Part shown: piece by piece, positions 5,127-18,152 of the stretch
How positions within the stretch are numbered: position 1 is the first letter of the stretch
Layout: each line of letters opens with the position of its first letter
Assembly: GCA_030655215.1 (NCBI GenBank)
Contig: JAURVZ010000084.1
Coordinates: forward strand, 124,001 to 188,000
Origin: Pseudolabrys sp.
GTDB lineage: Bacteria; Pseudomonadota; Alphaproteobacteria; Rhizobiales; Xanthobacteraceae
Direction: 5' to 3'
Length of the DNA: 64,000 nucleotides
Position numbers and translations under genes: made by a program
The notes under the pieces: generated by a model
The model's input: only the letters and a program-made list of their open reading frames with translations
Told to the model about the DNA's origin: nothing
The model's database searches: none

Positions 5127-6224
5127 CTAGCGGCTGCGATCGACGATCAAGGCGACAGGCCCGCCGCCATCGGGGCCTTGATGCTCCGCACCACCAGATA
5201 CATAGATCTCGGCGTGGCCAACGAGGCCGCCCAATGCACCAGCGACAAAAGCGCGGGCGTGGCGGGTCGAGGAAATATCGCTGTCGTCGAGCATGGTGTG
5301 GCGTTTGCCGCGCAAAAGGCCGTCATGGCTGGCTTCGGCCTTGCCGAGCAGAGCAACCAAACGTAGCCGATCAATCAAGCAAAGCTGGCCGGGTGTGGAC
5401 AGGCCGAGCCGGGCGAGCGCCGCCCGGACCGGCTCAATATCGATGCCATCGGCCATTACCGCGTGATCGACCGCCAGCGGCCCGGACCATGCCGCTGACA
5501 TGCCGAGCACGACGATCTCGTGGTTGAGCAGCTCAATGCCGGCCGAGGCGCTGGCCCGGCCGGACCACAGGTTCCAGTTGCTGCCAATATCGGCATCCCT
5601 GATCGCCGACGCCTCGAGTTCCCCGAGCGCCACCGCAACGCCGAGCGAGCTGGCTGCGCGGGAGAGGCCCATCGATTTCAGGGTCTCCCGCGTCGCCACG
5701 GTGACGCCCCGCGCATCCGCCTCGGCAATGCGCTGCGCCGTCAGCAGCGGGCATTTGATCTGGACGAAATGAACATCATCCGGGTCGGTAATGCCGGCAT
5801 CCAGCATCGCCGCCCTGACACCTTCAGCAACCTGCTCGATCTGACCGGCCCGGCCGAGCTGCTCGAACGGCAAAGCCGGCGTATGGGCGCGGCCAATGGC
5901 CAGCGCCGGCGACGCACCGCCCTGCCCCTCGCCGCGCTCGAAGACGACCCAGTGTGGCGCCATGCCGCCCTCGGTGCCGCCGGACATGACCAGGCAAATG
6001 AGATCGGCATGCTCGGCCGGCAGGTGCCGGCGAAACATGGCGGTCAGGCTGGTCGTCGCCAGCCCGCGGCTGAAATCATTGACCAGACCATTGCCCTCGG
6101 TCTTGCCGAGGACGGCCAGCACGCCCTTCGGATCGATACGGCCATCGGCGATCGCCGCCTCGATGCCGCTGACATCGTCGGGCGCATTGGCGGAAATACG
6201 ATGAGCCTTGGCGACCGGCATCAT
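5127..6224 (-). CDS. Barbiturase/cyanuric acid amidohydrolase family ring-opening hydrolase
   Basis: About 365 residues, matching the AtzD/TrzD/Bar family (about 363-370). The protein shows the three-fold pseudo-repeat with Ser/Lys pairs: GKTEGNG (Lys41) with MSGGTEGG, IKCPLLT with SASAGIEL, and KAEASHDG with VSGGAEHQGP. This fold hydrolyses cyclic imides such as barbiturate (to ureidomalonate) or cyanuric acid (to biuret); sequence alone does not tell me which. A longer frame begins at 6251, but the ATG at 6224 lies one base after the stop of the preceding amidohydrolase, behind GCGGG, and aligns with family N-termini, so I prefer 6224 (6221 is also possible). Biuret and allophanate hydrolases are absent nearby, which favours a pyrimidine role. 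Confidence 0.9.
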   Translation of the reverse strand: MMPVAKAHRISANAPDDVSGIEAAIADGRIDPKGVLAVLGKTEGNGLVNDFSRGLATTSLTAMFRRHLPAEHADLICLVMSGGTEGGMAPHWVVFERGEGQGGASPALAIGRAHTPALPFEQLGRAGQIEQVAEGVRAAMLDAGITDPDDVHFVQIKCPLLTAQRIAEADARGVTVATRETLKSMGLSRAASSLGVAVALGELEASAIRDADIGSNWNLWSGRASASAGIELLNHEIVVLGMSAAWSGPLAVDHAVMADGIDIEPVRAALARLGLSTPGQLCLIDRLRLVALLGKAEASHDGLLRGKRHTMLDDSDISSTRHARAFVAGALGGLVGHAEIYVSGGAEHQGPDGGGPVALIVDRSR

Positions 6225-6225
6225 A

Positions 6226-7665
6226 TCACCCGCAATAAAACTGACCGGCATAGTGCTTGCGCAAGGCGCCTTTCAGTTCCGGCATGGCGGCGCGCACATC
6301 CGCCGTGGTCGGATAGGCCTTGCGCATGGTCGCCAATAGCTCGGCTTCCATTGCCGGCAGATCGACGCCAGTGACAGCACCATCGCGCACCACATCGCGG
6401 CCATTGATGATCAAGCCTTTGACGTGGCTCTGCTTGCCCTTGGCCAGCACCATGTCGAACGGCGGCACGTCGGGCTCGATCAGTTCGGCGGAAAGCTCTT
6501 TCCAGTCGAGCAGCAGCATATCAGCCGGCGAGCCGGGCGCGACTTGCGAGCCCGACTCGCCGGTCACGGCAAAGCGGCCATTCGCCGTGGCGAAGCGCAT
6601 CAGGTCTGGGCGCGGGAACTTCACGTCGAAGCCCGAACCTTTATGAACGGCATAGGCCAGCCGCATTTCGCGCAAGGCATCCTCGTCCTCATCAAACGCC
6701 AAACCATCGAGGCCCATGGCGACGCGGCAGCCGCGCTTGATGAATTCGGCAATCGGCGCGACGCCGGAGCTGACAATGAAGTTGGATGACGTATTGACGA
6801 CGATGGTGGCGCCGCGCTCGGCGATCAGCTCCATCTCATCAGGCCGCAGATAAATGCAATGCGCGAACGATACGCGCTCGTTCACCAGGCCGATCTCATC
6901 AAGATATTTGACAATGCCTTGCGGGAAATTGCGGTCAGCCCAATTGCGCTGATACTTGGTCTCCAGCAGATGCATGTGGACGCGGCGATTGGTTCGCGCG
7001 GAAGACTCGCCAATCAGCCGCAGCATCGTGTCGGTGCACCACTGCACACCGGCAGGCCCATATTGCACGGTGACGCCGTTGCCTTCGATCTCGGCAGCCA
7101 CCGCCTCGACCATGGCAACCTGCTCCGCCGCGGGCACAGGATTGCGCAGGAAGCGCCGCGTGACGCATTCGCACGCGGCTGGCGACAGATCGGCGAGCAA
7201 CGCATCATGCGCGTCATAGACCAGCGGGTTCATATCGCGGCAATGCACGGCCAAAGCCATGCGGATGCCGACATCGCGCGCCGCCTTGGCGACAGCTTTC
7301 GCTTCGGTCGGGAAATCTGTCAGGCCCTGCACGCGGGTATAATGCGCCATCACTGAGCCAACACCGCCACGCGCCGTGCGCCCGAAAGACACCGCGCTGG
7401 CGAGATAGGGATCGACGGCCGGGATCAGCGTCAGATAAGGCAGCCACGCTTCCAGCGGCACATCATAGCTGCCGACCTGACTGAGCCGCGCAACGCGCGC
7501 ATGGTCATGCGCATTGGCCAGAGGCGGCATGACCAGCAGGCCATCACCAGCACCCTGCTCCATCGAGGCAATCTTGCCGCCGTCGATGACAATCGACTGG
7601 TTGGCCAAAGCCGTCTCCTGGGTGCCGTCCAGCACCCAGGAGGCCTTTATCGTTCGATCGCTCAT
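6226..7665 (-). CDS. Metal-dependent amidohydrolase/deaminase (AtzB/TrzA/cytosine-deaminase-like)
   Basis: 479 residues of the amidohydrolase superfamily. Metal ligands are visible: His53/His55 in NAHDHA, a later His in VHMHLLET, His in SFAHCIYL and Asp in GLDGLAFDEDED. The HLLET and NTSSNF motifs are typical of chlorohydrolases and aminohydrolases acting on triazines, adenosine-type or pyrimidine rings. The open frame extends upstream to 7857, but the ATG at 7665 gives the normal N-terminus (TIKASWVLDGT) and sits 28 nt after the binding-protein gene. It lies one base before the barbiturase-family gene, suggesting it deaminates or dehalogenates the ring that the barbiturase then opens; that order is inference. 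Confidence 0.88.
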   Translation of the reverse strand: MSDRTIKASWVLDGTQETALANQSIVIDGGKIASMEQGAGDGLLVMPPLANAHDHARVARLSQVGSYDVPLEAWLPYLTLIPAVDPYLASAVSFGRTARGGVGSVMAHYTRVQGLTDFPTEAKAVAKAARDVGIRMALAVHCRDMNPLVYDAHDALLADLSPAACECVTRRFLRNPVPAAEQVAMVEAVAAEIEGNGVTVQYGPAGVQWCTDTMLRLIGESSARTNRRVHMHLLETKYQRNWADRNFPQGIVKYLDEIGLVNERVSFAHCIYLRPDEMELIAERGATIVVNTSSNFIVSSGVAPIAEFIKRGCRVAMGLDGLAFDEDEDALREMRLAYAVHKGSGFDVKFPRPDLMRFATANGRFAVTGESGSQVAPGSPADMLLLDWKELSAELIEPDVPPFDMVLAKGKQSHVKGLIINGRDVVRDGAVTGVDLPAMEAELLATMRKAYPTTADVRAAMPELKGALRKHYAGQFYCG

Positions 7666-7693
7666 TGTCTTCAAGTGCCCTTGGCCCGCCGGG

Positions 7694-8728
7694 TTACATC
7701 GCGCCGAGCTTGAGCATCCGATCCGCCTTCGGCGGCAGGAATGAGCGGTCGAACACGTCCTTCGCCGCCGGCGTGTTCGGCAGCTTGTAGGTATCGACCA
7801 GCAGCTTGATGCCCTTGTCCATGCGCGCATCGGAAACATCGCCGAGGCCATTGGCATCGGTCTCCTTGGAGACGAAATGCGTCTTCAGCGCATAGACCAG
7901 ACGCTGCGTCTCAATGTCCGCGTTCATCAGCGGCTCGACCTTCATCATTTCCTTGACGCCGGCCGCCGGGTTGCCAGCAACTTCGATCATCGCCTTGTTC
8001 AGCGCTTTTACGAGACCGGCAACAGCCTTCGGCTTTTCAGCACGCATCTGCTTCGACACCATGATGCCGTTCGAATACAGGTCAATGCCGTAGTCCGAGA
8101 AGTAGAACCAGCGGAAGTCCTTCATCGGATCCATCTTCATGCCGATGAGGTTGGCATAGCTGGTGACGGTGAAGATCGCCGAGAAATCGACGTCGCCCTT
8201 GACCAGCATCTGCTCCTGAAGATTCGGCGCCATGTTGACGACAGGCACCTTGGCGGGATCGACGCCGTTCAGGGCGGCCAGGGCAGAGAACAGAACGCCG
8301 GAAGCGCCGCCCGCGGGCGTGCCCATCTTCTTGCCTTCCATGTCCTTCAGCGTCTTGATCGGGCTGTCGTTCTTGACGATCAGGGCGAAGGGCGGCGTGT
8401 TGTAGATCATGTAGACCATCACCGGCTGCTCGCCCGGCTTGGTGCCGGCGAACTGGATGATGGCGTTCATGTCGCCGAAGCCGGCGTCATAAGTGCCCGA
8501 GGCAATGCGCGACACGGTTGCCGCAGAGCCGGTGCCCTGGTCAATCTCGACATCAAGACCTTCGGCGGCGAAATAGCCCTTGTCCTTGGCCCAGAAAACA
8601 TAGGCGTGCAGGCCCTGATACTTCCAATCCAGCGTGAAGCGGATCTTGGTTTTCTCCTGAGCATGGGCGCCGGAGATGGTGCAGCAGAGACCGAGCAGCA
8701 GCGCGGCAGTGACGCGGAAGAACGACAT
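7694..8728 (-). CDS. ABC transporter substrate-binding protein, NMT1/THI5-like (copy A)
   Basis: 344 residues with an export signal (MSFFRVTAALLLGLCC... cleaved near AHA-QEK) and the NMT1/THI5-like periplasmic-binding fold: LDWKYQGLHAYVFWAKDKGYF, then GTGSAATVSRIASGTYDAGFGD. The ATG at 8728 has a good site (AAGGAG) 8 nt upstream; an earlier ATG at 8761 would add 11 residues ahead of the signal and is not favoured. This fold binds thiamin-pyrimidine precursors, pyrimidines, sulfonates and similar compounds. A second related binding protein lies at 12700-13740 in the same operon, while only one permease and one ATPase gene are present. Confidence 0.9.
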   Translation of the reverse strand: MSFFRVTAALLLGLCCTISGAHAQEKTKIRFTLDWKYQGLHAYVFWAKDKGYFAAEGLDVEIDQGTGSAATVSRIASGTYDAGFGDMNAIIQFAGTKPGEQPVMVYMIYNTPPFALIVKNDSPIKTLKDMEGKKMGTPAGGASGVLFSALAALNGVDPAKVPVVNMAPNLQEQMLVKGDVDFSAIFTVTSYANLIGMKMDPMKDFRWFYFSDYGIDLYSNGIMVSKQMRAEKPKAVAGLVKALNKAMIEVAGNPAAGVKEMMKVEPLMNADIETQRLVYALKTHFVSKETDANGLGDVSDARMDKGIKLLVDTYKLPNTPAAKDVFDRSFLPPKADRMLKLGAM

Positions 8729-8775
8729 AGGGAGCTCCTTGTGAGACGAGTTATCCGGCAAAAAAGTTAGAACGG

Positions 8776-9549
8776 TTAGCCCATTGCGAATTCGTCTTTG
8801 CGATGCGCCCAGCCCGTGATGCGGCCTTCAATCAGCGAGAAAATCGCGTAGAGCGACACGCCGAGGAAGGCGAGGATCATCAACCCGGCAAAGACCAGCG
8901 GCACGTCGAAGTTCGATGATGCGATCATCATCACGTTGCCGATGCCGCGGTTCGACGCGACGGTTTCCGAAATGACAGTGCCGACGAAGGCGAGAGTGAC
9001 CGAGACCTTCAGCGAGGCGAAGAAGAACGGCATGGTGCGCGGCAGGCCGACATTCCAGAGAATGTCCAGCTTGGTCGCGCGCAGCGCGCGCATGACGTCT
9101 TCGAGTTCGGGTTCAGTCGTGGCGAGGCCGGTCGCGACGTTCACGACGATCGGGAAGATGCACATGATCATGGCCGTCAGCACGGCCGGCACCGTGCCGG
9201 AGCCGAACCACAGCACGAAGATCGGCACCACCGCGACTTTCGGGATCGAGGCGAAGCCGACCAGCAGCGGATAGGCGACGTCGTAAGCCAGCTTCGACGA
9301 GCCGATCAGCACGCCGAGTGATATGCCGATGAGAATGCCGAAGCCGAAACCAACCAGCGTGGTGTAGACCGTTTGCAGCGTATGCGGCCACAGCGCCGGC
9401 CCGCGCGCAATCAAGGTGGAGATGATCTGGCTCGGCTTCGGCACGATGATGTCGCTGACATTGAACAGCCAGCACAGCGCCTCCCACAGCACGAAGAAAC
9501 CAACGATGAGAACGGCGGACCAGACTTTACGGCGGGCGTGCGGGCTCAT
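8776..9549 (-). CDS. ABC transporter permease, NMT1/SsuC-type
   Basis: 257 residues with about six hydrophobic segments and the inner-membrane EAA-type loop near ELEDVMRALRATKLDILWNVGLPRTMPFFFASLKV. It belongs to the taurine/sulfonate/pyrimidine-precursor importer permeases. The start is ATG at 9549, overlapping the ATPase stop by one base (TGATG); the longer frame upstream runs through the ATPase gene in another frame and is not coding. It would form the membrane channel with the ATPase at 9549-10388 and the two binding proteins of this operon. Confidence 0.92.
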   Translation of the reverse strand: MSPHARRKVWSAVLIVGFFVLWEALCWLFNVSDIIVPKPSQIISTLIARGPALWPHTLQTVYTTLVGFGFGILIGISLGVLIGSSKLAYDVAYPLLVGFASIPKVAVVPIFVLWFGSGTVPAVLTAMIMCIFPIVVNVATGLATTEPELEDVMRALRATKLDILWNVGLPRTMPFFFASLKVSVTLAFVGTVISETVASNRGIGNVMMIASSNFDVPLVFAGLMILAFLGVSLYAIFSLIEGRITGWAHRKDEFAMG

Positions 9550-10388
9550 CAGACAGTCTCCTTCACCGGCCGCTGCGACACGATCAGTTCGCGCAGACGC
9601 TGCGTCATGGATACGAAAGTCGGCGTGTAGGACATGTCGATGGTGCGCGGCCGCGGGAACGGCACCTCGGCGTCGTCGACGATCTGGCCCGGGCGCGTGC
9701 GCATGACGCAGATGCGGGTGGCGAGATAACCCGCCTCCTTCAGGTCGTGGGTGACGAGAAGCACGGTCGGCTTCAGCTTCATCCACAATTCCTGCATGAC
9801 CGCCCACAATTCCTCGCGGGTGAACTGGTCGAGCGCGCCGAAGGGTTCGTCGAGCAGCAGCAGTTGCGGTTCATGGATCAGCGCGCGGCACAAAGAGGCG
9901 CGCTGCAACATGCCGCCCGACAACTGCCAAGGATGCTTGTCGCCGAAATTGGCGAGGCCGACTTCCTTCAGCAAAGCATCGGCGCGGTCACGAAACTCGG
10001 TTTTCTTCTTGGTGCGGTATTCCTGCCGGAACGGCGGTACGATCTTCAGCGGCATCATGACGTTGTCGCGCACGGTCAGCCAAGGCAGCATGGTCGGGTT
10101 CTGGAACGCCATACCGACGCGGATCGGCGTCGCACCGACCTCCCTGCCCGCGACATAGACATAGCCTTCGGTGGCGGTGATCAGGCCGGTGACCAGCTTG
10201 AGGATGGTCGACTTGCCGCAACCGGACGGGCCGACCAGCGCGACGAAGTCACCCTGATTGACGCGCAGATTGGTCAAGCCAAGCGCGGTCACCTGCTTTT
10301 CACCCCGCCCGTACGTGAGCGTGACGTTCTCCAGTTCGATGAAAGTGTCCTCGGTCCGTGGCAGTTCAGGCGCGGTCGTCATTGCCAT
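9549..10388 (-). CDS. ABC transporter ATP-binding protein, NMT1/SsuB-type
   Basis: 279 residues with Walker A (GPSGCGKST), Q-loop (AFQNPTMLPW), signature (LSGGMLQR), Walker B (LLLLDEP) and the switch His (LLVTHD). The ATG at 10388 lies directly after the stop of the cyclic amidohydrolase (no gap) behind GAAGGGAATAG, a good ribosome site. It energises the importer of this operon. Its position between two ring-hydrolase genes suggests the transported compound is the substrate of those enzymes, which is inference. Confidence 0.93.
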   Translation of the reverse strand: MAMTTAPELPRTEDTFIELENVTLTYGRGEKQVTALGLTNLRVNQGDFVALVGPSGCGKSTILKLVTGLITATEGYVYVAGREVGATPIRVGMAFQNPTMLPWLTVRDNVMMPLKIVPPFRQEYRTKKKTEFRDRADALLKEVGLANFGDKHPWQLSGGMLQRASLCRALIHEPQLLLLDEPFGALDQFTREELWAVMQELWMKLKPTVLLVTHDLKEAGYLATRICVMRTRPGQIVDDAEVPFPRPRTIDMSYTPTFVSMTQRLRELIVSQRPVKETV

Positions 10389-11834
10389 CTATTCCCTTCG
10401 CCCGGCAGAGCATTGAGTAGTAATCGCCTGCATCGTGTGTTCGGCATTGCGCACCTGCGGCGGCGGCATGTGCTGGATTGTGTGCACCGACTGACCCCAG
10501 CCTTTGCTGTCGGCGACCAAAGTGCGGTCTTTCATGACGAAGCGGCCACGCACGATCGTATGGACCGGCAGGCCCTTCACCTTGCGGCCATCCCACGGCG
10601 AGATCTTGGAGCGCGACTGGGTCTCGACATCGCGGATCGTGTGCTCACGGCCGAGGTCGACCATGGCGATGTCGGCATCGGCGCCGACCGACAGCGATCC
10701 CTTCTGCGGATAGAGGCCCCAGATGCGCGCCGGATTGTACGAACTCATGCGCACATAATCAGAGATCGTCATGCGGCCGGCGTTTACCTCGGTGAGCATC
10801 AGTGGCATCTGCGTTTCGACGCCGGGAAAGCCGCAATCGACAGTCCAGATGTCGTTGCGGGTTTTCTCTTCCGGCGTATGCGGCGCATGATCAGTGGCGA
10901 CCATATCGATGCTGCCATTGAGCAGCGCCTGCCAGATCGGCTCCTGATTATGCTTTTGTCGGACCGGCGGATTGACCGCGATGACGCCGGGCACGCGGGT
11001 GTAATCCTCGGTCGACAGCATCAGATAATGCGGACAGGTCTCGCCGGTGATATCGACGCCGCGCGCTTTGGCCTCGCGCAACGGGCGCAGCTCGTCAGCG
11101 GTCGAGATGTGCAGCACATGAATGCGCGCACCGGTCCATTCGGCGAGAATGGCGGCGCGGCTGACCGCCTCGACTGCAACGACTGCCGGCCGGGCTGCGA
11201 GATGGGCGAATTGATCGCGGATGCCGGCGGCCATCAGCCGCTTCTGCCGCCGCTCCATGATGTCGTTGTTCTCGGCATGCAGCGAGACGCGCTTGCCGCT
11301 TTGCGCCGCCACTTCGAATAGTTCGAGCGTCGCGCCGGTGTCGGGCGACGCGATCTTGCCGAAAGTGTTGCCCATATAAAGCTTGAAACCGATGATGCCG
11401 CCTTGGAGCAGTTCCGGCACGGTGGCAAGGTTTTCATCACCGAGCAGCCCGTAGAGGCCGAAATCGATATGCGCCTTGGATTTGGCAATGGCGTGCTTGG
11501 CCGCAAGGATTTCGCCATTGGCCGTTGCCGGGATCGTGTTCGGCATGTCGAACACGGTGGTGACGCCGCCAAAGGCGGCAGCGGCGGTGCCGCTTTCCCA
11601 GTCTTCCTTGTGCGGGTAGCCGGGATCGCGGAAGTGAACATGCACGTCGATCGCGCCCGGCAATATGTGCAAGCCGCTGGCGTCAAAGGTCTCGGTCGCC
11701 GGCGGCATTGCCTCAGGCGCGCCGACGGCGAGCACCTTGCCGTCCTTGATGGCAAGGCTGGCTTCGATCACAGCGTCCGGCGAGACGATCTTGCCATTAT
11801 GAATGACGAGGTCTGCTTTCATGGTGGCGCTCAC
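10389..11834 (-). CDS. Cyclic amidohydrolase (dihydropyrimidinase/allantoinase/dihydroorotase family)
   Basis: 481 residues with the binuclear-zinc site of the cyclic amidohydrolases: DVHVHF, the carbamylated Lys in GFKLYMG, His in IHVLHIST and ETCPHYL, and Asp in ATDHAPHT. These enzymes open dihydropyrimidine, hydantoin, allantoin or dihydroorotate rings. The ATDHAPH motif resembles dihydroorotase/allantoinase more than classical D-hydantoinase, so I leave the substrate open. A GTG at 11834 overlaps the SDR stop by 4 nt (GTGA); an ATG at 11822 is the alternative. The C-terminal tail after residue 440 is longer than usual. Located between SDR and ABC genes in the LysR-divergent operon. Confidence 0.88.
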   Translation of the reverse strand: MSATMKADLVIHNGKIVSPDAVIEASLAIKDGKVLAVGAPEAMPPATETFDASGLHILPGAIDVHVHFRDPGYPHKEDWESGTAAAAFGGVTTVFDMPNTIPATANGEILAAKHAIAKSKAHIDFGLYGLLGDENLATVPELLQGGIIGFKLYMGNTFGKIASPDTGATLELFEVAAQSGKRVSLHAENNDIMERRQKRLMAAGIRDQFAHLAARPAVVAVEAVSRAAILAEWTGARIHVLHISTADELRPLREAKARGVDITGETCPHYLMLSTEDYTRVPGVIAVNPPVRQKHNQEPIWQALLNGSIDMVATDHAPHTPEEKTRNDIWTVDCGFPGVETQMPLMLTEVNAGRMTISDYVRMSSYNPARIWGLYPQKGSLSVGADADIAMVDLGREHTIRDVETQSRSKISPWDGRKVKGLPVHTIVRGRFVMKDRTLVADSKGWGQSVHTIQHMPPPQVRNAEHTMQAITTQCSAGRRE

Positions 11835-12625
11835 AGCATGGCCCAGCCGCCATCGACCGGCAGGTCGACGCCGGTCAGCTGACGCGAGACGTCGCTCGCC
11901 AGGAACAAGCAGGCATTGGCGACGTCGGCATCTTCAGTGACGCGCTTGAGCGCGTAATCGGCGGCATGGCGCTCCATTGCCTCTTCCAGCGTGATGCCGA
12001 GGCGCTGTGCCATGTCGGCGCAGACCTTGTCGCGAAAGCGCGGGCCATCGACCATGCCCGGCGCGACATTGTTGACGTTGATGTTGTACTGGCCGACTTC
12101 GAGCGCGAAGCTCTTGGTAATGCCGCGCAGGCCCCATTTCGACGCTGAATAGGCCAGGCGCCCGGCCTTGCCGCGCATGCCGAATGTGCCGCCGACATTG
12201 ACCACCTTGCCGTAGCGCTGCGCGATCATGGTCGGCAGCACGCTGCGCATGCTGTGAAAGCAGCCGTTCATGTTCAGCTTGACGATGTCTTCGAATTCTT
12301 CCGGCGTGGTGTCGACGCCGCTTTTGCCGACCGGCCCCGAACCGCCGGCGACATTGACGAGAATGTCGATACGGTCGCCGTAGGCTTCTTTAGTCTTCGC
12401 CGCAGCTGCATCGCATTGCGCCGGATCGGTCAGGTCGCACGGCACGATGATTGCCTGCGCGCCCATCTTCTTCACTTCCGCAGCGACCGGCTCGATCGCC
12501 GCAACATCGCGGCCGAGCAGCGCCAGCTTGGCGCCTTCAGTGGCGAAGGCGGTGGTGATGGCGGCGCCCATGCCCTTGGCCGGGCCGGTGATCATCACGA
12601 CTTTGCCGTTGAGGTTCAATTCCAT
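11831..12625 (-). CDS. Short-chain dehydrogenase/reductase
   Basis: 264 residues of a classical SDR: cofactor motif TGPAKGMG near residue 14, NVAGG, and the catalytic YSASK preceded by the Ser/Thr region VVNVGGTFG. The usual catalytic Ser before the Tyr is not obvious (GGT occupies the area), so Thr may serve. I prefer the ATG at 12625, with AAGG 7 nt upstream, over the GTG at 12631. It overlaps the cyclic amidohydrolase by 4 nt and follows the binding protein B gene by 74 nt. Substrate unknown. Confidence 0.88.
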   Translation of the reverse strand: MELNLNGKVVMITGPAKGMGAAITTAFATEGAKLALLGRDVAAIEPVAAEVKKMGAQAIIVPCDLTDPAQCDAAAAKTKEAYGDRIDILVNVAGGSGPVGKSGVDTTPEEFEDIVKLNMNGCFHSMRSVLPTMIAQRYGKVVNVGGTFGMRGKAGRLAYSASKWGLRGITKSFALEVGQYNINVNNVAPGMVDGPRFRDKVCADMAQRLGITLEEAMERHAADYALKRVTEDADVANACLFLASDVSRQLTGVDLPVDGGWAML

Positions 12626-12699
12626 CGCCACACCTTGAGATACTTCGAGAAAGTGGCCGTCCCTCCCCCCACGGAGGAACGCCCAGTTTGCGGGTCGTG

Positions 12700-13740
12700 T
12701 TAGAAAAGCTTGGTCGGCAAATCGGCGACCGGCGGCAGGAACGACCCGTCCCAGACTTCGCTCACTGCCGGCGAACGCGGCAGCGCCGACGCATCGACGA
12801 TGATGTCGATCGACTTCTTCAGCCGCTCGACATCGATGCCGCCGAGACCGACCTTCTTGATTTCCGGATGGTTCATCTCGTCGGCGAAGGTGGCGTCGAA
12901 GCGTTCACGCTCGACATCGAGCTTGATCAGCGGCTCGCGCTTTGCGACCGAGGCAACCGACGCCGCCGGATCCTTGATCGAGTCCTGCATGCCCTTGTTG
13001 AGCGCGCGCAGGAAGCCCTTGACCACTTCCGGCTTTTCCTTGGCCAGCTTCTTCGGCACGATGATGGCGTTGGAATAGAGATCCATGCCGTAATCGCCGT
13101 ATTTGATGTAACGGATCTTGCTCTCTTCGATCTTGGCCAGCTTGGCCGAGAAGCGGATCGTGTTGACGTAACCGAACACGCCATCGACCTGCCCCTGCAT
13201 CAGCATGTTCTCGCGTAGATTCGGCTGCATGTTGGAGAGCTTGACGCCGGTGCAATCGATCTTGGCGAGCTTGCAGAACGCCGGGAACAGCTTGAGCGCT
13301 CCGTCATTGGCCGGGCCGCCGATCGCCTTGCCCTCGAGATCCTTCGGCGTCTTGATCGGTCCGTCGGCCTTCACGGCAATGGCGAAGGGCGGCTGGTTGT
13401 ACATGACGTAAACCGCCACTGGCGCATCTTCAGGCTTCTTTGCCGCCAATTCGATCAGTGCGTTGAGATCGCCGAAGCCGATGTCGTAGGTGCCATTGGC
13501 AACCAAAGCCGGCACACCGCCGGAGCCATTGCCCTGATCAAGCTGCACCTCGATACCTTCGGCTTTGAAATAGCCGCGGTCATCGGCGAGGAAGAACATG
13601 CCCTGCGGACCCTGGTACTTCCAGTTCAGCACGACTTTCAGCTTGGTTTGGGCAGATGCAGGCGTCACGGCGGCGAGCGGGCCACCGAGCGCGATCGCGG
13701 CCGTGGCGGCGATCATCAGGGAACGGGCGGAAAGGGTCAT
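12700..13740 (-). CDS. ABC transporter substrate-binding protein, NMT1/THI5-like (copy B), first gene of the leftward operon
   Basis: 346 residues with a signal peptide (cleavage near ASA-QTK) and the NMT1/THI5-like fold. LNWKYQGPQGMFFLADDRGYFKAEG and QGNGSGGVPALVANGTYDIGFGD parallel copy A. The ATG at 13740 follows AGGAG with 7-nt spacing; the upstream extension to 13782 is rejected. It is promoter-proximal, divergent from the LysR gene, with an inverted repeat in the 143-nt gap. Having two different binding proteins for one permease/ATPase may widen substrate range. Confidence 0.9.
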   Translation of the reverse strand: MTLSARSLMIAATAAIALGGPLAAVTPASAQTKLKVVLNWKYQGPQGMFFLADDRGYFKAEGIEVQLDQGNGSGGVPALVANGTYDIGFGDLNALIELAAKKPEDAPVAVYVMYNQPPFAIAVKADGPIKTPKDLEGKAIGGPANDGALKLFPAFCKLAKIDCTGVKLSNMQPNLRENMLMQGQVDGVFGYVNTIRFSAKLAKIEESKIRYIKYGDYGMDLYSNAIIVPKKLAKEKPEVVKGFLRALNKGMQDSIKDPAASVASVAKREPLIKLDVERERFDATFADEMNHPEIKKVGLGGIDVERLKKSIDIIVDASALPRSPAVSEVWDGSFLPPVADLPTKLF

Positions 13741-13837
13741 AGGCGCACTCCTGTCAGGATTCTGAAGCTCTGCGTCATGCAAGTGTGATGCCGGACGCTA
13801 GCCCCTCGGAGCGCTGCCAACTACTGCCGATTTCTTG

Positions 13838-13883: not shown

Positions 13884-14786
13884 ATGAAGCACCTGCGCAT
13901 CCTCGATTATGTCGACGCCGTCGGCCGTGCCGGCTCGATCCGCAAGGCGGCCGAGCAACTCAATGTGACTGCCTCAGCGGTCAACCGGCGCATCGCCGAC
14001 TTGGAGGAAGAGCTCGACACGATGTTGTTCGAGCGGCTGCCGCGCGGCGTTCGCCTCACCGCCGCCGGCGAAGTGTTCGTCAATTACCTGCGCAAGCAGG
14101 GCAGCGAAGCCGAGCGCATGAAATCGCAGATCGAAGACCTCAAGGGCATGCGCCGCGGCACGGTGCGCATCGCCTGCAGTCAGGCGCTGGCGCTCGACTT
14201 CCTGCCCAGCATGATCGCCGAATTCCGCAAGACACATCCAAAGGTCAGTTTCGACGTCAAAGTTGTCGACCATGAATTCGCCATGGCGGCGTTGACGGCG
14301 TTTGAAGTCGATCTCGTGCTCGTGTTCCGCCCGTCGTTCCTCGCCAGCTTTCATCCGCTGATGACGCTCGAGCAGCGGCTGGTTGCGGTGATGGCGAAGA
14401 ACCATCCGCTCGCTAAACTACGTAAGCTACGCCTACGCGATTGCGCCGCGCATCCTGTCGCCTTGCCCGATCGCTCGATCGGCGGACGGCAACTGCTTGA
14501 CCAGGTCGCGGCGCGCAGCGGCCTGACTTTCAACATCGCAACGGAATCGAATTCGTTCGAAATGCTGCGCGGCATGGTGACTCATGCTGGCCTGATTTCA
14601 TTTCAAATCAGCATCGGCACCCTGCCGGCCGGCAACAAGTTGGGGCTGGTGGCACGCGAGATCGACGACCGCGATGTGCCGAGCGCCAAGCTCGTCTTCG
14701 GCCAATTGCGCGAACGCGCTTTGCCTGTTGCGACAGCGGTGTTTGCCCAGCACATCATCCGCCGCCTGCAAGCGATGACACAGTAA
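13884..14786 (+). CDS. LysR-family transcriptional regulator
   Basis: 300 residues: an N-terminal winged helix-turn-helix (about residues 1-60; DAVGRAGSIRKAAEQLNVTASAVNRRI) and a type-2 periplasmic-binding-like effector domain from about residue 90. It lies between a 13-gene leftward catabolic operon and the rightward URC genes, so it is the obvious candidate regulator of both. The ATG at 13884 has no clear ribosome site, and an inverted repeat just upstream could overlap the translation start region. Effector unknown; a pyrimidine or its breakdown product is plausible. Confidence 0.92.
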   Translation: MKHLRILDYVDAVGRAGSIRKAAEQLNVTASAVNRRIADLEEELDTMLFERLPRGVRLTAAGEVFVNYLRKQGSEAERMKSQIEDLKGMRRGTVRIACSQALALDFLPSMIAEFRKTHPKVSFDVKVVDHEFAMAALTAFEVDLVLVFRPSFLASFHPLMTLEQRLVAVMAKNHPLAKLRKLRLRDCAAHPVALPDRSIGGRQLLDQVAARSGLTFNIATESNSFEMLRGMVTHAGLISFQISIGTLPAGNKLGLVAREIDDRDVPSAKLVFGQLRERALPVATAVFAQHIIRRLQAMTQ

Positions 14787-14946: not shown

Positions 14947-16248
14947 ATGGCGGGCCATATCCTTTTTGCTATGGCTCATGGTTTGAAAACGATGACACGA
15001 TCCAACCGGCCCGATCATATCCGCCTCACCTCGCATCCGGCGCCTGGCGGCAAGCTGGCATTCCCGATTAACTGGGGCGCACCGACCGCGCGCGAACGCG
15101 GACCGGTGATCGGCACCGTATCGCGGCCCGGCGACCGCAATGTCATCGGCACGCATGGCGGCTCCTACGCCTTGTATCGCGCGCTGGCGGTATCATCCGG
15201 CGCGCTTGATCCGATCCGCCGCCCCGATCTCACCAATACATTTCCGGCCGCCACCGTTGGCCCTTACGAGCAATGGAACGACCCGAAGCGCATCGTATCG
15301 CTTGATACGTGGGGCCATCTCATCGCCGAAAGCTTCAAGGACGAGATCGCCCAGGGCATGGACATCCGGCCGAGCATCGCCATCACCAAGGCGCGGCTCG
15401 ATCTGCACGAAATGCAGGATGCGATCCGTCAGGGCCGCATCAAGGTCGATGGCGACATCGTTCATAACAATGGCAGCGTCGGTGTTACCAAGATCGCGGT
15501 CGATCCGGTCTGGTATCTGCCCGGCATTGCCGAGCGTTTCAACACCAGCGAGAACGCATTGCGCCGCGTGCTATTTGAACAAACCGCCGGCATGTTCCCT
15601 GAACTGGTGACGCGTCCGGATTTGCAGGTGTTCCTGCCGCCGATTGGCGGCATCACTGTCTATCTGTTCGGCGACCCGACAAAGCTCGCCGACGCAACAA
15701 CAAAGATCACCTGCCGCGTGCATGACGAATGCAATGGCTCGGACGTTTTCGGCTCCGACATATGCACCTGCCGCCCTTATCTCATTCATGGCATCGAGGA
15801 ATGCGCACGCGGCGCGCAGGAAGGCGGCCTCGGCATCATTGTCTACAACCGCAAGGAGGGCCGCGCCCTTGGCGAGGTCACCAAATTCCTTGTCTACAAT
15901 GCGCGCAAGCGGCAGGAAGGCGGCGACGCCGCAGCCGCTTACTTCGAACGCACCGAATGCGTCGCCGGCGTGCAGGACGCGCGCTTCCAGCAATTGATGC
16001 CGGATGTCATCAACTGGCTCGGGCTCAAGCGACTCGACCGCTTCGTCTCGATGAGCGACATGAAATACAATGCTCTGGTCAGCCAGGGCGTCGAGATCGT
16101 CGAGCGCGTGGCGATCCCGGACTATCTCGTACCGGCCGATGCGCATGTCGAGATCGCCGCCAAGAAGGCCGCCGGCTATTACTCGCCGGAAGCGCCAAAG
16201 CCGCAGGACCTGACCGACTCGATCGGCCGCGGCCTCGACAAGTACTAA
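14947..16248 (+). CDS. URC1: URC1: GTP cyclohydrolase II-like uracil-catabolism protein
   Basis: 433 residues, much longer than GTP cyclohydrolase II (about 200), with the cyclohydrolase half in the C-terminal part. The zinc site is intact (Cys262, Cys273 and Cys275 in DEC...SDICTC), and VYNRKEGRALGEV parallels the YLRQEGRGIG loop of RibA. The long N-terminal half (SHPAPGGKLAFPINWG...) is characteristic of URC1 of the yeast and bacterial URC pathway of uracil degradation. Immediately downstream lie URC4 and a uracil phosphoribosyltransferase, the expected partners. It probably acts on a ribosylated uracil intermediate rather than GTP (family knowledge). The start is uncertain: ATGs at 14947, 14971 and 14992 all lack good ribosome sites. 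Confidence 0.88.
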   Translation: MAGHILFAMAHGLKTMTRSNRPDHIRLTSHPAPGGKLAFPINWGAPTARERGPVIGTVSRPGDRNVIGTHGGSYALYRALAVSSGALDPIRRPDLTNTFPAATVGPYEQWNDPKRIVSLDTWGHLIAESFKDEIAQGMDIRPSIAITKARLDLHEMQDAIRQGRIKVDGDIVHNNGSVGVTKIAVDPVWYLPGIAERFNTSENALRRVLFEQTAGMFPELVTRPDLQVFLPPIGGITVYLFGDPTKLADATTKITCRVHDECNGSDVFGSDICTCRPYLIHGIEECARGAQEGGLGIIVYNRKEGRALGEVTKFLVYNARKRQEGGDAAAAYFERTECVAGVQDARFQQLMPDVINWLGLKRLDRFVSMSDMKYNALVSQGVEIVERVAIPDYLVPADAHVEIAAKKAAGYYSPEAPKPQDLTDSIGRGLDKY

Positions 16249-16272
16249 TCGGCTTAGAAATGAACGCTCCCC

Positions 16273-17508
16273 ATGACTCCTGATTCAACTGCGGCCTTTT
16301 CTCTCCTCAGCGCCGAGGCCGTGCGCACGCGTGCGCAACACATGCTGTCGCTCGGCCTTGACGACAAGCTGCCGAACTTTCGCGTTGATCTTACGCAGAT
16401 CGATCCTGTTGCCGAACGCGTCATCGCTGTCACGAAGCAAGCTTATCCGTCGCTTGAGATTCCGTTTCATTCGCGCTGGCGTCATTTCGTTGTCAGCGGC
16501 GTCGATCGCCTTGAAGCCATCGCGCAAGTCGCCGCATTTCCGGACGCCGCGGCGCGCGGCCGCGCCGAATTCGATCTCGCCATTATCAGCGTCTTCCTTG
16601 ACGCCGGCGCAGGCAGCCAGTGGCGCTACGCGGACAAGGAAAGCGGCCAGAGCATCGGCCGCTCCGAAGGTCTTGCCCTGGCCAGCCTCGACATGTTCAT
16701 GCGCGGCGCGTTTTCCGCGAATGCTTCGCAGCCGTTGCGCGTCGATGCATCGGTGCTGGCGCATCTCAGCGCCGAGCAGCTGGCGCAAGGCTTTCAGGTG
16801 ACAGCGAGCAATCCACTTGTCGGGCTGGAGGGACGCGCCGCCTTGCTGCGCCGTCTCGGTGCCCTGGTCGCTGAAAGCCCCGGCGTTTTTGCCCAGCACG
16901 ACAGTCCCCGGCCCGGCGGGCTGTTCGATCACCTTGCCGCGCTCGGCGGTGACAAGACCGTTGCGGCGCCGGAGATCTTGTCCGAACTGCTGCACGAACT
17001 CGGCCCGATCTGGCCGTCGCGTATCTTGCTCGGCGGCATTCCCTTGGGCGATTGCTGGCGGCACGCGTCGATGAAGACAGGCGATGCCACCGATGGTCTG
17101 GTGCCGCTGCACAAGCTGTCGCAATGGCTGGCCTATTCGTTGATCGAGCCGCTGCAACGCGCCAGCATCAAGGTGACCAACATTGATGGCCTCACCGGTC
17201 TTGCCGAATACCGCAATGGCGGCTTGTTCGTTGACGCCGGTGTGCTGAGTTTGCGCGATGCCGGCCAGGCGGCGCACTCACATGATGCCGGCTCCGAACT
17301 CGTTGTCGAATGGCGGACATTGACCGTCGCCCTGCTCGACCGGCTCGCTGCCAAGGTGCGCGAGCGCCTGAACATGAACAGTGAGACATTGCCGCTGGCG
17401 AAGATCCTCGAAGGCGGCACCTGGGCCGCCGGGCGCGCCATTGCCCGCGAGAAGCGCACCGACGGCACGCCGCCGATTACCGTCACCAGCGACGGCACAG
17501 TATTTTAG
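16273..17508 (+). CDS. URC4: URC4/DUF1688 family protein, uracil catabolism
   Basis: 411 residues of the DUF1688 family, whose yeast member URC4 is required for growth on uracil as nitrogen source but has no established enzymatic role. Recognisable parts are [17 protein letters not shown] near residue 70, the GSQWRYAD...[12 protein letters not shown] region and the [18 protein letters not shown] segment near residue 260, with several conserved His/Trp/Arg residues that could form an active site. No signal peptide or membrane segment. It lies 24 nt after URC1 and 14 nt before the uracil phosphoribosyltransferase. Confidence 0.87.
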
Positions 17509-17522
17509 AACGGAGAAGCATT

Positions 17523-18152
17523 ATGGAAGGCGTTACCGTCGTCGACCATCCCTTGGTGCAGCACAAGCTGACCTTGATCCGCGACAAGAATGTGTCGACC
17601 AAATCGTTTCGCGAACTGCTCAGCGAAATCGGTATGCTGCTGTGTTACGAAGTGACGCGCGACCTGCCGCTGGAAATGATCGACATCGAGACGCCGCTCG
17701 CCAAGATGAAAGCGCCGATCCTCGCCGGCAAGAAGCTGGTCTTCGCGCCGATCCTGCGCGCCGGGCTGACCTTCGCCGAAGGCATGCTCGATCTGGTGCC
17801 CGCCGCGCGCGTTGCCCATATCGGGCTGTACCGCGAGCCGGAGACCTTTTCCGCTGTCGAATACTTCTTCAAGGCGCCGCACGACCTGCCCGAGCGTCTG
17901 GTCTTTGTCATCGTCCCGGTACTGGCCACTGCCAATACCGCTGTTGCCGCCGTTGACCGGCTGAAGGAGCGCGGCGCCAATGACATTCGCGTGGTTTGCC
18001 TGATCGCCGCACCGGAAGGCATCGAGCGCCTGCGCGGCATCCATCCGGACGTGCGCATCTGGACCGCCGCCATTGATGACGGCCTGAACGAGCAAGCCTT
18101 CATCGTTCCCGGTCTTGGCGATGCCGGCGACCGCGCCTACGGCACGAAGTAA
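17523..18152 (+). CDS. upp: Uracil phosphoribosyltransferase (URC6-type) with divergent PRPP loop
   Basis: 209 residues, normal Upp length and colinear with it: [24 protein letters not shown] at the N-terminus, PILRAGL (77-82), and the uracil-binding loop [15 protein letters not shown] at the C-terminus (194-208). The PRPP-binding loop, normally DPMLATGGS, here reads VPVLATANT (131-139): the Asp and both Gly are replaced. Catalysis of uracil + PRPP to UMP is therefore doubtful, or PRPP is bound differently. A ribosome site (CGGAGAAG) precedes the ATG. Third gene of the URC set; its stop is 3 nt from the convergent enoyl-CoA hydratase stop. Confidence 0.9.

Follow-up and report, generated by a model that had tools for sequence, protein, structure and literature searches.

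In phosphoribosyltransferases an acidic residue at the start of the loop that binds phosphoribosyl pyrophosphate (PRPP) holds the ribose hydroxyls. The closest described counterparts of the gene considered here are the uracil phosphoribosyltransferases (UPRTs) of the Upp type (TIGR01091, PF14681), such as that of Bacillus caldolyticus (1i5e), and the UPRT of Sulfolobus solfataricus (1vst, 1xtt, 3g6w). We analysed a window of 64,000 nucleotides from Pseudolabrys sp. (contig JAURVZ010000084.1, positions 124,001 to 188,000), in which the third gene of an operon for the URC pathway encodes a UPRT-like protein lacking the Asp at the start of its PRPP loop (Asp131), hereafter the Asp-less UPRT. According to excerpts of the respective reports (PMC7530994, PMC3869809, PMC2174524), the same three families stand together in the URC genes of Lachancea kluyveri (URC1, URC4 and URC6) and in the fission yeast urg1-urg2-urg3 genes, and an excerpt of the first describes some steps of the pathway as uncharacterised even in the yeast that has been studied; the loops of fungal URC6 and urg2 lie outside our comparison. 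Among the papers listed in searches of the open-licence literature of PubMed Central (PMC) we found neither a description of an Asp-less UPRT nor mutant data on the loop Asp.

The window protein is encoded by an uninterrupted reading frame (Table 1), matches PF14681 with 239.7 bits (cut-off 27) and TIGR01091 with 258.4 bits (cut-off 208.35), and shows an unaltered UPRT fold. The initial annotation had described it as colinear with Upp, with the uracil-binding loop kept and a PRPP loop reading VPVLATANT, and both statements held. As this loop lacks the Asp of the DPM-x-AT motif, the protein is classed here in the UPRT sequence and fold family and not as a proven UPRT enzyme. It is the sole match above the UPRT family cut-off in the source genome sequence, a draft of 3.64 Mb rated 80% complete, and its nearest named relatives include metagenome-assembled genomes and isolates of Pseudolabrys, as well as one metagenome-assembled genome labelled Rhizobium. 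Since the exact loop VPVLATANT is present in 15 distinct proteins, and 104 of 232 distinct full-length UPRTs are Asp-less, chance and sequencing or assembly error were ruled out as the origin of the Asp loss.

The loss of both loop Gly residues, which had been read together with that of the Asp as a sign of altered function, proved commonplace: 63 of the 128 distinct Asp-bearing UPRTs have Gly at neither place and only 2 at both, and among the 47 not seen linked to URC, 20 have neither. The S. solfataricus loop, DPMIATAST, likewise lacks Gly while keeping the Asp, and an excerpt of PMC3570474 cites published kinetics for this protein, which shows that a kinetically described UPRT can do without these residues. 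The Gly argument was therefore dropped, which leaves only the Asp loss, with Met133 changed to Val, as unusual.

Among the genomes examined, the Asp-less UPRT is a real lineage-wide variant tied to URC, and loss of the Asp was seen only in URC-linked copies. The UPRTs compared came from 150 relatives (75 with a match, that of G082 being weak and partial), a family-wide pattern scan (154 of 341 genomes matched, chance matches included, and UPRTs were taken from among the matches listed), 80 named loci and URC4-based searches; the set was assembled by similarity to the window protein and by URC4, and its counts are not population frequencies. Asp131 is replaced by Thr (45 distinct proteins), Ser (22), Val (16), Ala (10), His (9) or Asn (2). 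URC1 or URC4 lay beside 103 of these 104 proteins in the stretch fetched; the remaining one (L176/L216, Bradyrhizobium sp. STM 3843, G684) sits near a contig end, with URC4 on another contig. Of 128 Asp-bearing UPRTs, 81 were URC-linked and 47 were not seen to be, a label that may reflect short flanking stretches; together with the contig-end case these 47 make up 48 distinct UPRTs for which no URC linkage was seen, and all but that case have Asp131. Among the 80 named loci, the UPRT lacked the Asp in 44 with URC and in 1 near a contig end, and kept it in 25 with URC and in 10 without. The co-occurrence of altered loop and URC anticipated in the initial annotation holds, then, from Asp loss to URC, and fails in reverse, as 81 URC-linked UPRTs keep the Asp.

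URC4 was also found in 66 of 70 genomes chosen for Asp-less-type matches (a few by genus); it was absent from G014, G085, G556 and G702, and the UPRT of G702 lies at a contig end. G014, G085, G556 and G703 had been selected on false matches, those of the family f1 pattern in these genomes (G703:C67) not being UPRTs. Two class-wide scans looked for Asp-less UPRTs: when Asn138 was required and codon 131 had to have a pyrimidine (C or T) in second place, 14 of 385 genomes matched, with UPRTs only in G000 and G066; with A at the second base, a first base other than G and a purine-purine codon 138, 7 of 372 matched, none with a UPRT. As neither pattern covers Glu codons (GAR), codons with a G in second place or other spellings of the loop, the scans do not prove absence away from URC. 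A plasmid search gave 87 records, and in the three of them that were read the UPRT is Asp-bearing.

A careful tree of 84 rows, built with the loop columns excluded, near-identical rows merged and the long-branched L074, L078, L079 and L080 omitted, gave three changes of the Asp trait. It rejected a single clade of all Asp-less rows (p 0.013) and did not reject one clade of the rows with Val, Ala, Ser or Thr (the V/A/S/T group; p 0.426), so that a small Asp-bearing group within the latter may be a reversal or a misplacement. A further loss, NPLLATGGT, stands beside URC4 in two species of one genus from another family (G1002, G1086), where Asp-bearing URC-linked UPRTs also occur; it lies outside this tree and an earlier quick one. 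That the Asp was lost about three times, on each occasion in a copy linked to URC, hints at a tie to URC, short of proof.

The Asp-less UPRT is under purifying selection, with its proposed catalytic residues intact and its active site remodelled. The V/A/S/T group has a median ratio of nonsynonymous to synonymous substitution (dN/dS) of 0.18, the His group one of 0.171; the values for Asp-bearing UPRTs (0.269 for 16 URC-linked genes, 0.252 for 14 others) rest on few genes and do not allow a fair comparison. In the numbering of PMC3570474, which we transferred to the window protein, all 71 of the 71 Asp-less sequences compared have Arg79, Arg104, Thr136 and Asp200; an excerpt of that paper proposes Arg79 and Arg104 as PRPP-binding and catalytic and Asp200 as catalytic in other UPRTs (B. 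caldolyticus numbering). Of the columns with a conservation of 95% or more across 77 Asp-bearing UPRTs, those changed in the 71 Asp-less ones amounted to 13 of 31 in active-site motifs vs 3 of 38 elsewhere (p 0.0013), and to 10 of 25 vs 3 of 38 with the loop left out (p 0.0035), both p-values being indicative because the motif borders were set after viewing the alignment and columns are not independent. Two Asp-bearing control clades showed no such bias (3/34 vs 4/36 and 1/32 vs 3/39). In the V/A/S/T group, Asp loss goes with Gly83 to Thr (61/63), Asp105 to Glu (52/63), Met133 to Val or Ile (63/63), Tyr193 to Phe (57/63) and changes at residues 163-166, and it is by these columns, besides Asp131, that this group differs from Upp.

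These changes bear on whether the Asp is simply unimportant in this lineage, the protein being a normal UPRT with normal kinetics. The unaltered fold would agree with this, as would the variation of other loop positions among UPRTs, seen in S. solfataricus and in the 1upf and 1bd3 chains (DPMCATAGS), which we take to be those of Toxoplasma gondii. However, Asp131 is kept in every PDB UPRT whose alignment was inspected, as it is in all but one of those not seen linked to URC, and other active-site changes accompany its loss; we regard normal kinetics as distinctly unlikely. A changed donor or product, namely another phosphosugar, a substrate without free ribose hydroxyls or operation in the reverse direction, would accommodate the changes at 83, 105, 133, 163-166 and 193, and also the transporter and hydantoinase-like module found beside some Asp-less operons. 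It appears highly improbable, however: the proposed PRPP-binding residues are retained, the uracil loop is intact, the neighbourhood indicates no candidate donor, and the occurrence of V, A, S, T, H and N at one place fits a lost contact better than a gained one. Of the altered function proposed at the outset, the one-way co-occurrence with URC stands, and no result shows another donor, another product or lost catalysis.

The invariance of the proposed catalytic and PRPP-binding residues favours a changed but working UPRT. We propose, with about even confidence, that the Asp-less protein is a UPRT variant dedicated to URC, which would still make uridine monophosphate (UMP) from uracil and PRPP, with weakened binding. 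In this scheme the Asp-less UPRT would move uracil onto PRPP to give UMP, URC1 would open UMP to a ribosylurea (5'-phosphate) and a three-carbon unit, and URC4 would free urea and ribose-(5-phosphate). The Asp loss would weaken the binding of PRPP and UMP alike, and the diversity of the replacing residues fits the removal of a contact rather than the gain of a new one. A tight-binding salvage enzyme might in this way have become a weak-binding catabolic one, less inhibited by UMP and not draining PRPP when uracil is scarce.

The role assigned to URC4 is suggested by its likeness to Qng1, presumably the N-glycosidase of queuine salvage in family DUF2419 (7u91, 7ulc, 7ugk). URC4 has a Qng1-like fold at 15-21% identity, and an alignment of motifs by eye places its Lys281 and Glu312, present in 27 of 27 URC4 proteins, where Qng1 has Lys199 and Asp231, the residues mutated in structures 7u5a and 7ulc. 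The two differ in that Asp231 would correspond to Glu312 and in belonging to separate Pfam families: Pfam gives URC4 as DUF1688 only, at E up to 0.001, and not as DUF2419, and a URC4 profile retrieved no DUF2419 chain from the PDB sequences at E up to 10. A URC4 sequence search of the PDB returned two matches (E 0.58 and 1.1), judged to be chance. No report joining DUF1688, URC4 or urg3 with Qng1 was found among the open-licence PMC papers listed. URC4 is predicted from these comparisons to be an N-glycosidase resembling Qng1, which gives a hitherto functionless family a candidate activity open to testing. Such an activity would suggest that URC runs on a phosphoribosyl carrier, explaining the presence of a UPRT in the pathway: if URC4 acts on 5'-phosphorylated ribosylurea, URC1 should take a uridine nucleotide and the UPRT would be the natural loader of uracil.

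Several observations weigh against a working UPRT dedicated to URC. Pro132 is changed to Ser in two loci (L188, L191; loop TSVVATANT), and 4 of the 232 distinct proteins have Leu in place of Ser/Thr139 (e.g. SPVLATANL), which suggests that the whole PRPP loop is less constrained than may be compatible with a working enzyme. The AAPEG motif (163-166) is also altered, most strongly in the His group. URC4 was found in 53 of the 150 relatives, and 3 of these 53 (G051, G075 and G083; 99, 95 and 82% complete), which carry URC1-URC4 pairs (L203, L204, L205), have no UPRT above the family cut-off. In another class (L314, G993) a URC1-URC4 pair has a nucleoside phosphorylase (PNP_UDP_1) and a DeoC-like aldolase nearby, and the 12 kb read there, the only part of that genome searched for a UPRT, contain none. 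It appears that URC can draw on sources other than its own UPRT, which would not always be needed. Regarding the history of the loss, the quick tree (148 rows) showed two changes and did not reject a single Asp-less clade (approximately unbiased test, p 0.675), a formal test of the dependence of Asp loss on URC linkage was uninformative, with only 2-3 independent pairs, and since the losses number about three and whole clades share the linkage by descent, no causal link to URC can be demonstrated.

Some of these data would suit a pseudoenzyme that makes no use of PRPP and instead binds uracil or UMP, serving URC1 and URC4 as a regulator or scaffold, with UMP supplied by a second UPRT or by nucleotide turnover. 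The range of residues tolerated in place of the Asp, the few copies that also lose Pro132 or Ser/Thr139, and the three genomes without a UPRT, where URC apparently runs on something else, point in that direction. So does a second, Asp-bearing UPRT in many genomes of a Bradyrhizobium-like genus (among the matches listed). G066 and G084, for example, have a UPRT with the loop DPMLATGNS in addition to the Asp-less one, and the 3 kb fetched around it contain no URC gene. The retention of the proposed catalytic residues and the low dN/dS stand against a pseudoenzyme, as do eight single-contig genomes, 99-100% complete, in which the Asp-less protein is the only full-length UPRT (G010, G079, G553, G602, G704, G743, G770, G772), and we consider it unlikely. 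The eroded loops and the UPRT-less genomes nevertheless keep more radical readings alive. URC of Pseudolabrys and Bradyrhizobium might not be started by PRPP-dependent UMP synthesis by its own UPRT-like protein at all, the Asp-less protein being a sensor of uracil or nucleotides, a scaffold or an enzyme for another phosphosugar, while URC1 and a Qng1-like URC4 degrade pyrimidine nucleotides from elsewhere; we consider this less likely than not. The natural series, in which the URC copy has the Asp or lacks it, a salvage copy stands apart or no copy is present, allows a direct test of the role of the UPRT in URC, in Bradyrhizobium with both kinds.

Short, weak UPRT-like fragments with an internal stop were seen at G586:C97:496388-496480 and G782:C35:442403-442648; they may be what is left of a second UPRT that these genomes, which now have only the Asp-less one, once carried.

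In the window, URC1 (GTP-cyclohydrolase-II-like) adjoins URC4 (14947-17508), an adjacency also found in relatives, and the order on the + strand is LysR regulator, URC1, URC4, UPRT. Relatives of the LysR regulator, at 67-81% identity, lie beside URC in L204, L205, L209, L212 and L235. The module of binding protein, dehydrogenase, hydantoinase-like protein and ABC (ATP-binding cassette) ATPase recurs at 68-88% identity in the Asp-less loci L209, L212 and L235, and partly in the UPRT-less L204 and L205. Neither the Asp-bearing loci of the compared set nor the Pseudolabrys locus L215, which is Asp-less, showed this module, and the Bradyrhizobium loci, whose matches to its proteins reach at most 41%, did not show it either.

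Table 1. Coordinates of the URC operon, the UPRT loops and neighbouring genes in the window
Feature	Position	Strand	Family match or detail
Asp-less UPRT, third URC operon gene	17523..18152	+	209 aa
Altered PRPP loop VPVLATANT, residues 131-139	17913..17939	+	Asp131 to Val (codon 17913-17915), Met133 to Val
Intact uracil-binding loop, residues 194-208	18102..18146	+	includes proposed catalytic Asp200
URC1, GTP-cyclohydrolase-II-like (GTP_CH_N + GTP_cyclohydro2)	14947..16248	+	NF005536, 742.6 bits
URC4, predicted Qng1-like N-glycosidase	16273..17508	+	DUF1688, 497 bits
LysR-type regulator, upstream of URC1	13884..14786	+	
NMT1-type ABC substrate-binding protein	12700..13782	-	conserved beside some URC operons
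Short-chain dehydrogenase	11831..12631	-	same module as NMT1-type protein
Hydantoinase/allantoinase/dihydroorotase-like amidohydrolase	10389..11834	-	same module
ABC transporter ATPase	9549..10388	-	same module
Cyanuric acid amidohydrolase AtzD	5127..6251	-	NF052395, 547.1 bits (cut-off 360)
Amidohydro_1 protein	6226..7857		after AtzD
NMT1-type binding protein	7694..8761		after AtzD
ABC permease	8776..9807		after AtzD

URC1 contains a C-x10-C-x-C motif (CNGSDVFGSDICTC), which we take to resemble the zinc site of GTP cyclohydrolase II. On G011:C116 (L010) a second URC copy was observed, with a URC4 match in two pieces, one with an internal TGA, beside a full-length Asp-less UPRT. The AtzD gene and those that follow it form a ring-opening N-heterocycle cluster near the URC operon.
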